NCBI RefSeq assembly: GCF_001017125.1
Contig: NZ_JXOJ01000001.1
Location: 266,133-330,132, forward strand
DNA length: 64,000 bases
Direction: 5' to 3'
Source of the DNA: Methanoculleus sediminis
GTDB lineage: Archaea > Halobacteriota > Methanomicrobia > Methanomicrobiales > Methanoculleaceae
Every line of letters begins with the position of its first letter. Position 1 is the stretch's first letter. The position numbers and the translations under genes were made by a program. The notes under the pieces are model-generated. The model did no database searches, was not told the DNA's origin, and saw only the letters and a program-made list of their open reading frames with translations. Positions 6,071-56,045 of the stretch are shown piece by piece.

Positions 6071-6120
6071 GCGAGGCGAAGCTCCGCAGGAACAGAGCTT
6101 GAGCACCGAAGGTGCGAGCG
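6071..6120 (+). repeat. Single copy of the twin-hairpin repeat
   Basis: The sequence has gctccgcaggaacagagc (first hairpin, long loop), the linker ttgag, and the hairpin gcacc/gaa/ggtgc followed by gag. It lies in the gap between the PflX-like gene and trmO. It is read through by the frame of trmO, which makes the long N-terminal extension of that frame unlikely to be real. Confidence 0.6.
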
Positions 6121-13065: not shown

Positions 13066-13250
13066 ATAGGCGACCGTCAGGTCGCCGGAGGTTTCGAAAG
13101 GGGCGTAGCCCCTTCGTTTGAGAGACGACGTAGCCCCTTCGCGGCTTCGCGCTCTTCGCGTGAGACCTTGTCGCTGCCCCCTACACTTCACCTCACGCGA
13201 AGCCGCGAAGAACGCGAAGTTTTGTTGGGGGTAACTCTCTTTCGCGGCGC
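13066..13250. repeat. Repeat patch: cgcgaag family plus one hairpin module
   Basis: The gap 13027-13290 holds no gene. At 13098-13114 there is a perfect hairpin aaggggc/gta/gcccctt. At 13138-13163 the sequence ttcgcggcttcgcgctcttc leads to cgtga. At 13193-13219 the complement appears as tcacgcgaagccgcgaag plus aacgcgaag. The two arms can fold back on one another around a 29-base centre. Equivalent paired arms occur at 23870-23995, 30475-30599, 54228-54309 and 55952-56027. Confidence 0.75.
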
Positions 13251-22626: not shown

Positions 22627-23814
22627 ATGAAGTGCAGCAAGTGCCGCCGCGACGCGATTCTTTTCCAGCGATACTCGGGGCTGCACCTCTGCGAGCAGCA
22701 CTTCAACCGCGATTTCGAGGCGAAGGCGAAGCGGGCGATCCGGGAGCACCGCTGGATCGAGTCGGGCGACACGGTGGCGGTGGCGCTCTCGGGGGGCAAG
22801 GATTCGAGCGCCGTCCTCTTCTTCCTCCACCGGCTCCTCGGCGAGCGGAGGGACGTTCGGCTGATGGCGATCACCGTGGACGAGGGGATCGGGGGTTACC
22901 GCGACCCGGCCAGAGCCGGAGCCATCGCCGAGAGCATGGGCGTCCCCTGGGTGACGGCGTCGTTCGCCGGGGAATACGGGGTCACGCTCGATGAGATCGT
23001 GGGCCGGAAAGGAACGGGGCTCTCCTGCTCCTACTGCGGGGTCCTGCGCCGGGCCCTGATGAACCGGATTGCCCGCGAACACGGCGTCACGAAGTTCGCC
23101 TACGGGTTCAATCTGGACGACGAGGCGCAGTCGGTTCTGATGAACGCTCTCCGGGGGGATGCGGAGCGGCTCACCCGCCCCATGCGGGAGACGGAGGGGA
23201 TGGTTCCCCGGATCAAGCCGTTCATGTACATCCCGGAGCGGGAGGTGGCGCTGTATGCCTTTCTCCACGTCGAGGGGTTCGACCTCGCGGGCTGCCCCTA
23301 CGCGGGCGACGCTCTCCGTGGCGACGTCCGCGGCATCCTCGACGACTATACCTACCGCCACCCGGCGACGAAGTACTCGCTCGTGAACCTCGGCGAGGCC
23401 CTCCGGAGGACGGAGAAGCCCGGGGCGGAGAAGATGGGGTTCGGGGTTTGCGAGAGGTGTGGAGAGCGACTGCCGGAACGGCAGGAGCTTGAGCACCGGG
23501 AGGTGCGGGATGCGACTGCCGGAACGGCGGGAGCACGAGCACCGGAAGGTGCGAAGCCGTGCGGGGAGCGACTGCCGGAACGGCAGGAGCTTGAGCACCG
23601 GGAGGTGCGGGATGCGACTGCCGGAACGGCGGGAGCACGAGCACCGAAGAACGACGTTCCTTCAGGATGCGACGGTTCGTCAGAATCGGAGCTGGAGAAA
23701 CCCGGAAGGGTTTCGGGAACGGAGTTTGAGCACCGGAGGTGCGAAGGTGCGAAGCCGTGCGGGAGGATCTGCCGGACGTGTCAGATCCTCGATGAGATGC
23801 GGCGGGGAACCTGA
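22627..23814 (+). CDS. NcsA/TtuA-type tRNA 2-thiolation enzyme split by repeat DNA
   Basis: 395 residues. An N-terminal zinc site (C3, C6, C22, H25), the PP-loop SGGKDS (55-60), and the central Cys pair around CSYCG and CPYAG match TtuA/NcsA enzymes that thiolate tRNA uridine. The usual C-terminal zinc ribbon is CxxC plus CxxC: here CERCG lies at 275-279 and ICRTCQILDE at 381-390. About 100 residues from in-frame repeats stand between them (two 102-base copies giving GERLPERQELEHREVR twice, then more). In relatives these halves are close together. The frame is kept, so a full protein can be made, with a long disordered loop in the ribbon. Confidence 0.88.
   Translation: MKCSKCRRDAILFQRYSGLHLCEQHFNRDFEAKAKRAIREHRWIESGDTVAVALSGGKDSSAVLFFLHRLLGERRDVRLMAITVDEGIGGYRDPARAGAIAESMGVPWVTASFAGEYGVTLDEIVGRKGTGLSCSYCGVLRRALMNRIAREHGVTKFAYGFNLDDEAQSVLMNALRGDAERLTRPMRETEGMVPRIKPFMYIPEREVALYAFLHVEGFDLAGCPYAGDALRGDVRGILDDYTYRHPATKYSLVNLGEALRRTEKPGAEKMGFGVCERCGERLPERQELEHREVRDATAGTAGARAPEGAKPCGERLPERQELEHREVRDATAGTAGARAPKNDVPSGCDGSSESELEKPGRVSGTEFEHRRCEGAKPCGRICRTCQILDEMRRGT
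23464..23760 (+). repeat. Twin-hairpin repeat array inside the tRNA thiolase gene
   Basis: The unit starting gcgactgccggaacggcag occurs at 23466 and again at 23568 (102-base period, 34 codons). A half-unit variant lies between them at 23512. Hairpins are ctgccg/gaa/cggcag, gcacc/ggga/ggtgc and gcacc/ggaa/ggtgc. Further along are ggttc/gtca/gaatc (about 23678), aaaccc/ggaa/gggttt (about 23698) and gcacc/gga/ggtgc (about 23730). The stems differ but stay paired. The total insertion keeps the reading frame. Confidence 0.8.
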
Positions 23815-23829
23815 AAGGTATATGTCTCA

Positions 23830-24175
23830 CGCGAAGTTAGGTAGGAGGATGCTGCAACTCTCCTTCGCGGCTTCGCGTGAGGCCGTATCGTCGCTTATAT
23901 ATGTTAGCTCACGCGAAGCCGCGAAGAACGCGAAGAACCGTTTGGTTGTGAGTTACTCCCTTCGCGGCTTCGCGGCTTCGCGTCTTTCGCGTGAGACCTC
24001 GCCACCCTCCATAGACTATCTCACGCGAAGTGCAAGCGTAGTGAGCTCAAGCACCGAAGATGCGAGCCGCGAAGGATGACTATCCCTTCAGGAAAGGTGT
24101 TCGAGCACCGGAGGTGCGAAGAACGCGAAGTTCAGCAGATGAGTGTTGGCAGCCTTCTTCGCGTGAGACAACGCT
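23830..24175. repeat. Large cgcgaag repeat patch with hairpin modules
   Basis: The 420 bases between the tRNA thiolase and phosphoglucose isomerase genes hold no supported gene. Arms of the cgcgaag family lie at 23868-23882, 23909-23935 (acgcgaagccgcgaagaacg), 23961-23995 and 24022-24030, and gcgtgag occurs near 24160. Hairpin modules appear at about 24030-24065 (gcacc/gaa/gatgc, one mismatch) and 24105-24125 (gcacc/gga/ggtgc). Open frames here (for instance 23459-24079) are made only of repeat sequence and are not counted. Confidence 0.75.
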
Positions 24176-30364: not shown

Positions 30365-30474
30365 GCCGGTAGTAGGTAAGTAATAGTAGAGCCTCATGCG
30401 ACGAATGCGAAGAGGCGTTGCTATACCCATACACGGAACTTCGCGGGTAGTAATAGGGGCGACAGCACTATGGC

Positions 30475-30655
30475 CTCACGCGAAGAACGCGAAGCCGCGA
30501 AGGGAAGTTGCTCGCAAATAAACCGATCTTCGCGTTCTTCGCACCTGTGGTGCTCAAGCTCCGGGCGTTCCGCCCATCGCTCTTCGCGGCTTCGCGTGAG
30601 TTACTTGCCGGGGATAACAATACAGCCCCACACGAAGCCGCGAAGGAAGTGGCTT
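30475..30655. repeat. Repeat patch: cgcgaag arms around a reverse twin-hairpin module
   Basis: The 295-base gap after the flavoprotein gene holds no gene. cgcgaag arms lie at 30475-30501 (tcacgcgaagaacgcgaag), 30527-30542, 30581-30599 and 30632-30648. On the minus strand a complete module is present: gggcg/gaa/cgccc (30563-30575), the linker ggagcttgag, and gcacc/aca/ggtgc (30541-30553). This is the only copy whose first stem is gggcg/cgccc. Confidence 0.75.
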
Positions 30656-54217: not shown

Positions 54218-54430
54218 GACACCGGAGTTCGCGTTCTTCGCGCCTTCGCGTGAGGTGACGGTAGGCGTAGTGCCGAGATCTCACGCGAAGAGCGCGAAGC
54301 CGCGAAGTGCGACGGATGGGGCATCCGGAGCTTGAGAAGACCGAAGGTCTTCGAAGTGCGATGGTTCGTTAGAACCGGAGCATGAGCACCGCAGGTGCGA
54401 GCCGCGAAGAACGCGAAGAGATCTGTGGAA
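54218..54430. repeat. Repeat patch with two complete twin-hairpin modules
   Basis: The gap 54073-54474 holds no gene. cgcgaag arms lie at 54228-54255 and, inverted, at 54281-54309 (tcacgcgaagagcgcgaag). Two whole modules follow. Module one: ggat/ggggc/atcc-type (54314-54326), linker ggagcttgag, aagacc/gaa/ggtctt (54337-54351). Module two: ggttc/gtta/gaacc (54363-54376), linker ggagcatgag, gcacc/gca/ggtgc (54386-54398). Another cgcgaag arm ends the patch. Confidence 0.8.
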
Positions 54431-55944: not shown

Positions 55945-56045
55945 CGGCGATTCACGCGAAGACGCGAAGGCGCGAAGTCTGGATGGGTACTGATGGACTC
56001 CTTCGCGTTCTTCGCGTCTTCGCGTGAGGCCACGTCACTGACTTC
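55945..56045. repeat. Paired cgcgaag arms between the two methyltransferases
   Basis: Arms lie at 55952-55977 (tcacgcgaagacgcgaag plus gcgcgaag) and inverted at 56002-56027 (ttcgcgttcttcgcgtc then ttcgcgtga). They flank 24 bases and can form a long hairpin. The 316-base gap 55771-56086 otherwise holds no gene, in particular no restriction endonuclease. Confidence 0.75.

Follow-up and report, generated by a model that had tools for sequence, protein, structure and literature searches.

Evidence that an intergenic hairpin repeat of Methanoculleus has entered, in frame, the zinc ribbon of a tRNA 2-thiolase

How a tRNA thiolase comes to carry a long array of DNA repeats between the two cysteine pairs of its C-terminal zinc ribbon, and what this does to the enzyme, are the questions raised by a gene within 64,000 nucleotides of the Methanoculleus sediminis genome (assembly GCF_001017125.1, contig NZ_JXOJ01000001.1; this whole stretch is hereafter the window). 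In what follows, G numbers designate genomes, G000 being that of the window, and L numbers designate loci or gene copies. The encoded protein matches the NcsA profile NF047749 at 197 bits, passes the cut-off of TIGR00269 (69.2 against 62.75) and contains a TtuA_LIM_N domain; as the curated NCBIfam cut-offs of both NcsA (197 against 500 bits) and TtuA (126 against 450 bits) were missed, we call it NcsA/TtuA-type and do not choose between the two names. Its best solved relative is the NcsA of M. maripaludis (MmNcsA, 6scy; profile match 1.8e-58), and with this enzyme (PMC10067955) as well as with TtuA of Pyrococcus and Thermus it shares the fold, the PP-loop, three cluster cysteines and the N- and C-terminal zinc sites. 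However, known NcsA/TtuA structures have a compact C-terminal ribbon without any insert. All metal-binding and catalytic residues are intact in the window gene, namely the N-terminal zinc ligands C3, C6, C22 and H25, the PP-loop SGGKDSS (of the SGGxDS type), the cluster cysteines C134, C137 and C223 and the C-terminal zinc ligands C275, C278, C382 and C385, and the zinc, PP-loop and cluster positions are invariant or nearly so across the alignment of thiolase homologs. Four thiolase copies elsewhere in the genus have altered PP-loops: SGGRGS in G016 (L088), SGDGDS in G022 (L086), SGSKDS in G017 (L017) and SGSKGS in G031 (L029).

The reading frame of the window gene is open over its whole length and its codon use is coding-like as far as the insert, a stretch of 288 nt (96 codons, no stops) whose boundaries are ambiguous by a few nucleotides and which splits the ribbon into CERCGE (CERC being residues 275-278) and PCGRICRTC (CRTC being residues 382-385). 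An earlier sequence-only reading of this DNA had described the split of CERCG from ICRTC by a repeat array in frame, and this description holds; the roughly 100 intervening residues that it counted become exactly 96, residues 377-380 (PCGR) belonging to the ancestral ribbon. As for the two 102-base copies that it saw in the array, the 102-nt spacing is confirmed and the second copy matches the first over 88 nt, beyond which (after 23646) it runs on into other hairpin modules. The insert region folds far better than shuffled sequences (z = -8.3). A search of the insert region in Rfam gave no match, and a Pfam search of the insert returned nothing above cut-off. The coordinates of all these features are collected in Table 1.

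Table 1. Thiolase gene, parts of its split ribbon and intergenic repeat copies in the window
Feature	Position	Strand	Basis or remark
NcsA/TtuA-family tRNA 2-thiolation gene, 395 codons	22627..23814	+	NF047749, TIGR00269, TtuA_LIM_N and 6scy match
Ribbon first half, CERCGE (codons 275-280), containing the target-like motif GGTGTGGAGAG	23449..23466	+	sequence; empty-allele comparison
In-frame repeat insert, 288 nt, codons 281-376	23467..23754	+	empty/filled boundaries; dispersed copies; predicted disordered
First two-unit block, 90 nt, corresponding to the complete G010 insert	23467..23556	+	empty/filled comparison
CCGTGCGGGGAG, ribbon flank (PCG + GAG) repeated inside the array, putative junction mark of two fused alleles	23557..23568	+	sequence
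Second block, 186 nt: G033/G020 135-nt insert type with extra hairpin modules	23569..23754	+	allele comparison
102-nt direct repeat, copy 1	23457..23558	+	self-comparison
102-nt direct repeat, copy 2 (88 nt match, 98%)	23559..23646	+	self-comparison
Ribbon second half, PCGRICRTC (codons 377-385)	23755..23781	+	sequence, alignment
Intergenic copy of hairpin module, downstream of the thiolase	24087..24121	+	89% identical to 23712-23746
Intergenic unit copy	30537..30595	-	80% identical over 59 nt
Intergenic unit copy	54357..54409	+	repeat comparison, pattern match

The inserted DNA is made of a unit of 45-46 nt that reads TGCGAC, a small hairpin, GAGNNN, a GAGCACC/GGTGC hairpin and a final GA; the arms and loop lengths of the first hairpin differ between copies, and the GAGCACC...GGTGC hairpin is near-constant. 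Folded one copy at a time, the unit reaches a mean MFE of -8.0 vs -4.7 for shuffles. That such modules are copies of a repeat, as had been supposed, is borne out by 74 blast matches of the insert in its own genome and by a stringent pattern for the unit core (GGAGYNNGAGCACCGNNRGGTGCGA, one mismatch allowed), which has 93 matches in G000 vs none for the reversed pattern taken as control. In the window, a hairpin-core pattern is matched 7 times (0-1 times in shuffles). Most Methanoculleus genomes have matches to the GGAGYNNGAGCACCGNNRGGTGCGA pattern, as does one sister genus; among the other genomes of the order, of which 199 were searched in all, it matches just once.

Nearly all copies of the unit are intergenic. 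Indeed, in 400 kb sampled evenly from G020, the complete isolate genome of the cultivated type strain M. marisnigri JR1 (PMC3035220), none of 27 copies lies in a called gene, though about 78% of this sample is coding, and all 27 are thus intergenic; among the 30 best matches in the genome of the window, the thiolase is the sole convincing coding copy. These checks cover targeted and sampled stretches, with gene calls outside the named families taken from a codon-usage model trained on the window. Other candidates for in-gene copies were rejected: downstream of the window copy at 6101 there is a likelier start codon, and codon scores place L043, L054, L055, L096 and L130 either upstream of the true coding region or at its edge. 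The unit also forms head-to-tail arrays, such as L102 (G020:C1:1428000-1432500) and L098 (G033:C11:1-3000), which are intergenic and hold many near-identical 46-nt units. Arrays of this type are a possible source of the satellite reports for M. marisnigri. A 45-nt satellite family of this species, Fam_48_45_4, is listed in a table of tandem-repeat families (PMC6749651), and to equate it with the hairpin unit is a guess, the likeness being confined to the genus and species of G020 and the repeat length.

Further repeats were seen in passing. Directly 3' of the thiolase (23815-24170) lies a second dispersed inverted-repeat element with CTCACGCGAAG and CTTCGCGTGAG modules, found again in the window at 13137-13248, 30472-30650, 54228-54419 and 55952-56031 and sometimes joined to hairpin-unit copies; at positions 2254-2426, a 50-bp unit with a palindrome of its own (GTTCCGACCGGAAC) is repeated 3.5 times in tandem. 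In G005, the C-terminal tail of the thiolase (RDATARRTGP, L012) is encoded by what appears to be part of the hairpin unit, which may sit at the 3' end of the thiolase in that genome too.

Comparison across the genus, where one genome per species is available and several genomes are metagenome bins, gave 32 Methanoculleus genomes with a readable ribbon. The ribbon is compact (typically CERCGEPCGKICRTC) in 23 of them and filled in the other nine, at an identical point in every case (CGE|PCG) and with lengths of 45, 90, 93 (four times), 135 (twice) and 288 nt, all nine being multiples of three. Two types of insert can be told apart, type A in G000 (288 nt), G033 and G020 (135 nt each), G010 (90 nt) and G016 (45 nt), and type B in G029, G027, G025 and G031 (93 nt each). 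The number of units thus differs between species, and the filled allele of M. marisnigri JR1 encodes the peptide RLPERQELEHREVRDATAGTAGAR... at this point. No filled thiolase was found in a genome with fewer than 20 pattern matches (0/10, against 9/22 of the genomes with 20 or more; p = 0.03). The sequence-only reading, which supposed that relatives have one compact ribbon and that the repeat had invaded the gene with the frame kept, is supported by these empty alleles and by the dispersal of the insert DNA; instead of a long, conserved insertion of unrelated DNA in all relatives or a known domain, most relatives are empty and the segment matches no domain. Beyond its view were the recurrence of the insert at the same point in nine genomes, its apparent spread by recombination and the fact that other genes have been hit likewise. 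That the array is a plain local tandem duplication or an assembly artefact, with no mobile repeat involved, has become extremely improbable: one part of it is a tandem duplication, but units are present genome-wide and genus-wide, the empty sites are exact and a filled allele stands in the complete JR1 genome, so that this explanation is largely refuted.

The alleles also carry traces of their history. Over codons 1-270, the filled gene of G020 has 99.3% identity to the empty gene of G006; from about codon 265 onwards, the two abruptly part. Between G033 and G020 (L002-L003), the insert has 1 change in 135 positions vs 48 in 780 for the core (p = 0.006), and between G027 and G025 (L007-L011) 2 in 93 vs 71 in 780 (p = 0.017). 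On the gene tree, many branches of which are weak, neither insert type is monophyletic and each requires 3 changes. Since the inserts have diverged less than their genes, the insert types are not monophyletic and G020 differs so abruptly from G006, the inserts probably move by recombination, the C-terminal segment travelling with its insert from one species to another. Within the window array, CCGTGCGGGGAG joins the ribbon's right flank to its left flank, and the array as a whole suggests the fusion of a 90-nt allele with a longer filled allele through this repeated flank; an unequal crossover between two filled alleles would account for the 102-nt period.

The thiolase is not the only gene concerned, and in three more families, an ACT-metallo-lactamase, an HTH_10 regulator and a membrane protein, the unit lies in frame at a fixed point with empty alleles in relatives. 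In the protein combining ACT and metallo-beta-lactamase domains, DDRRC is followed by an insert of 180 nt in G012 and of 186 nt in G032, and 28 relatives are empty. The HTH_10 regulator carries a 45-nt antisense insert in G008 (L180); its copy in G027 (L177), with an insert of 141 nt, is counted only as a broken copy because an in-frame stop lies upstream of the insert. In G029 (L190), the same gene reads CGGAGTCGCACCTGTCTTG, which equals a filled allele minus the stretch between two ACCT repeats and is probably the scar of an insert lost by deletion. The membrane protein, which has no Pfam match, received exactly 45 nt in G004 and G031 (L196, L199), 90 nt in a paralog of G004 (L220), 138 nt in G029 (L193) and 46 nt, breaking the frame, in G003 and G012 (L212, L214). 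It belongs to a multi-copy, clustered gene family found in several species (L193-L222). As the 46-nt inserts break the frame, the unit does not by itself guarantee it; the surviving alleles are frame-keeping, the exceptions being paralogous or broken copies.

Because the insert RNA folds strongly and the insertion point is exact and conserved, one might also suppose that the insert is an archaeal intron of the bulge-helix-bulge kind, spliced out of the RNA, or that ribosomes skip it, either of which would leave a compact protein. We consider this very unlikely: neither mechanism requires that nine of nine thiolase inserts be multiples of three, the insert DNA is also repeated between genes, and the frame-breaking membrane-protein inserts are followed by sequence that is out of frame. 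From the frame and the coding context, the insert is instead presumed to be translated as part of the thiolase.

What the added peptide does to the enzyme can be approached through models and alleles. In an AlphaFold model built with 35 homologs, pLDDT is below 50 over residues 285-377 and the helix at 383-393 is kept, the insert being hence predicted to be disordered. As both terminal zinc domains of MmNcsA occupy flexible positions (PMC10067955), a loop at the ribbon tip is plausibly tolerated. A less benign possibility, which we regard as unlikely, is that the 288-nt insert abolishes the zinc ribbon and that the gene, no longer functional, is turning into a pseudogene. In favour of this stands G016, where the 45-nt insert holds an in-frame TGA, the PP-loop is altered and the host gene has decayed; moreover, active sites are altered in four copies of the genus (G016, G017, G022, G031), of which G017, G022 and G031 each have a second thiolase paralog, about 40% identical, suggesting that redundancy relaxes the constraint on these copies. 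By contrast, the window gene retains SGGKDSS, its three cluster cysteines and all zinc ligands together with coding-like codons up to the insert, and no close second thiolase paralog was found in G000 at E <= 1e-30; G033, G020, G029 and G025 likewise have one filled, intact copy each. If tRNA thiolation matters in G000, the filled enzyme must therefore perform it. To call the gene essential, as the first reading came close to doing, is an overstatement, since deletion of ncsA in Haloferax volcanii is viable and the gene is needed there only for growth at 50 C (PMC4048286).

The same reading left it between an insert tolerated and an insert selected, and the two halves of this alternative fare differently. 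Tolerance is supported by the intact metal-binding and catalytic residues in a genome with no other close family member. Selection is not borne out, dN/dS giving no sign of it in the one type B pair compared, L007 and L029, where the insert has about 0.55 vs 0.21 in the core, values that come from very few changes. Adoption of the peptide as an RNA- or protein-binding arm kept by selection would fit its recurrence at one point in nine of 32 genomes and the position of an Arg-rich peptide beside a zinc domain that, it was suggested, moves so as to clamp the anticodon loop of the tRNA (PMC10067955). It is nonetheless improbable, given that types A and B place different peptides at the same site, that most species have none, and that, besides the dN/dS values, disorder is predicted. 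Most likely the added peptide would be a loop, disordered and tolerated, that links the two pairs of cysteines.

We are thus confident that a Methanoculleus-specific, non-autonomous hairpin repeat has been inserted in frame in the loop at the tip of this tRNA 2-thiolase's C-terminal zinc ribbon, and the insertion sites hint at a route. In two of the genes, the thiolase and the ACT gene, the unit has entered 0-5 nt downstream of GGTG[CT]G, a sequence that also forms its own 3' end, and GGTG[CT]GGNGAG occurs once per ORF, at the insertion site, in all 14 empty thiolase ORFs examined. Coding positions that close to GGTG[CT]G amount to 0.4%, and the chance for two of four sites is about 1e-4 with a motif picked after the sites had been seen; the good fit to this target is limited to these two of the four gene families. 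GCGAG or GAG, also the unit's own end, flanks several inserts, among them those of the membrane protein and one intergenic insert. Insertion would hence tend to fall just downstream of a mimic of the unit's 3' end (GGTGCG...GAG), which the Arg-Cys-Gly codons of the thiolase (CGG TGC GGN GAG) would supply. Each inserted unit would offer a new target, and landing beside its own end would explain the head-to-tail intergenic arrays. Being about 45 nt long, the unit would often keep the frame, with frame-breaking alleles lost or persisting only in redundant or decaying copies, while filled alleles would pass from one species to another by homologous recombination and lengthen through unequal crossing over. 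More speculatively, one may think of an archaeal hairpin element of three-fold length (45 nt) whose own end GGTGCG is its landing site, which builds intergenic arrays and repeatedly enters the Arg-Cys codons of metal-binding or surface loops, and whose mover is not of the REP/IS200 type; we put this forward as a possibility, and a minority one.

In certain Methanoculleus species, hairpin repeats that usually lie between genes have entered, in frame, a thiolase loop as well as three or more further proteins, a rare archaeal case of coding insertion. Most known cases of translated palindromic repeats come from Rickettsia, Wolbachia and a number of REP-rich bacteria, and in the literature searched, mostly non-subscription papers, we found neither a description of archaeal coding insertions of such repeats nor an archaeal case with matched empty and filled alleles. 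A single genus, in which one cultivated type strain has been completely sequenced, hence offers natural before-and-after pairs for the passage of a mobile hairpin into a conserved enzyme. Two questions can now be put to the test: are such loops of any use to the host or neutral, and how does a 45-nt hairpin move when no transposase is obvious?

Regarding known systems, the unit recalls the intragenic REPs (GTAG/CGTC repeats), which are mainly intergenic palindromes with some copies in ORFs and with grouped copies, and for which different REPs at about the same site of orthologous Xanthomonas recB genes are one reported case (PMC3733652); its location, grouping and same-site insertions in orthologs are all alike. 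However, its ends are TGCGAC/GGTGCGA as opposed to GTAG or CGTC, and the Y1/HUH (RAYT-type) transposase PF01797 is absent from G000 and most repeat-rich genomes, occurring in 7 of 35 genomes, mostly repeat-poor; given the missing end tag and the lack of PF01797 in G000, a REP/RAYT origin is not supported and was rejected, and no mobilising enzyme for the unit was found. Nor does it have the terminal inverted repeats of MITEs, TGCGAC and GGTGCGA not being inverted repeats of each other; the GAG or GCGAG beside several inserts may be a target-site duplication or simply the unit's own end. The closest likeness, one of behaviour, is to the Rickettsia palindromic elements (RPEs), palindromic repeats that interrupt conserved genes of unrelated function in frame and seem to be translated with them (Ogata et al., 2000, as cited in PMC10969869), and to the Wolbachia palindromic elements. 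These are likewise short palindromes accommodated in frame as extra loops, with tRNA-modification genes among their hosts, such as the tRNA pseudouridine synthase B of R. conorii (PMC3733652), just as the present repeat is found in frame in the thiolase, the ACT-metallo-lactamase, the HTH_10 regulator and the membrane protein. Unlike the RPEs (about 150 bp), the Methanoculleus unit lacks the CGTC end tag of RPE-4 and RPE-6 (PMC3733652) and is an archaeal two-hairpin element of 45-46 nt that forms tandem arrays, stays mostly between genes and only rarely enters them.
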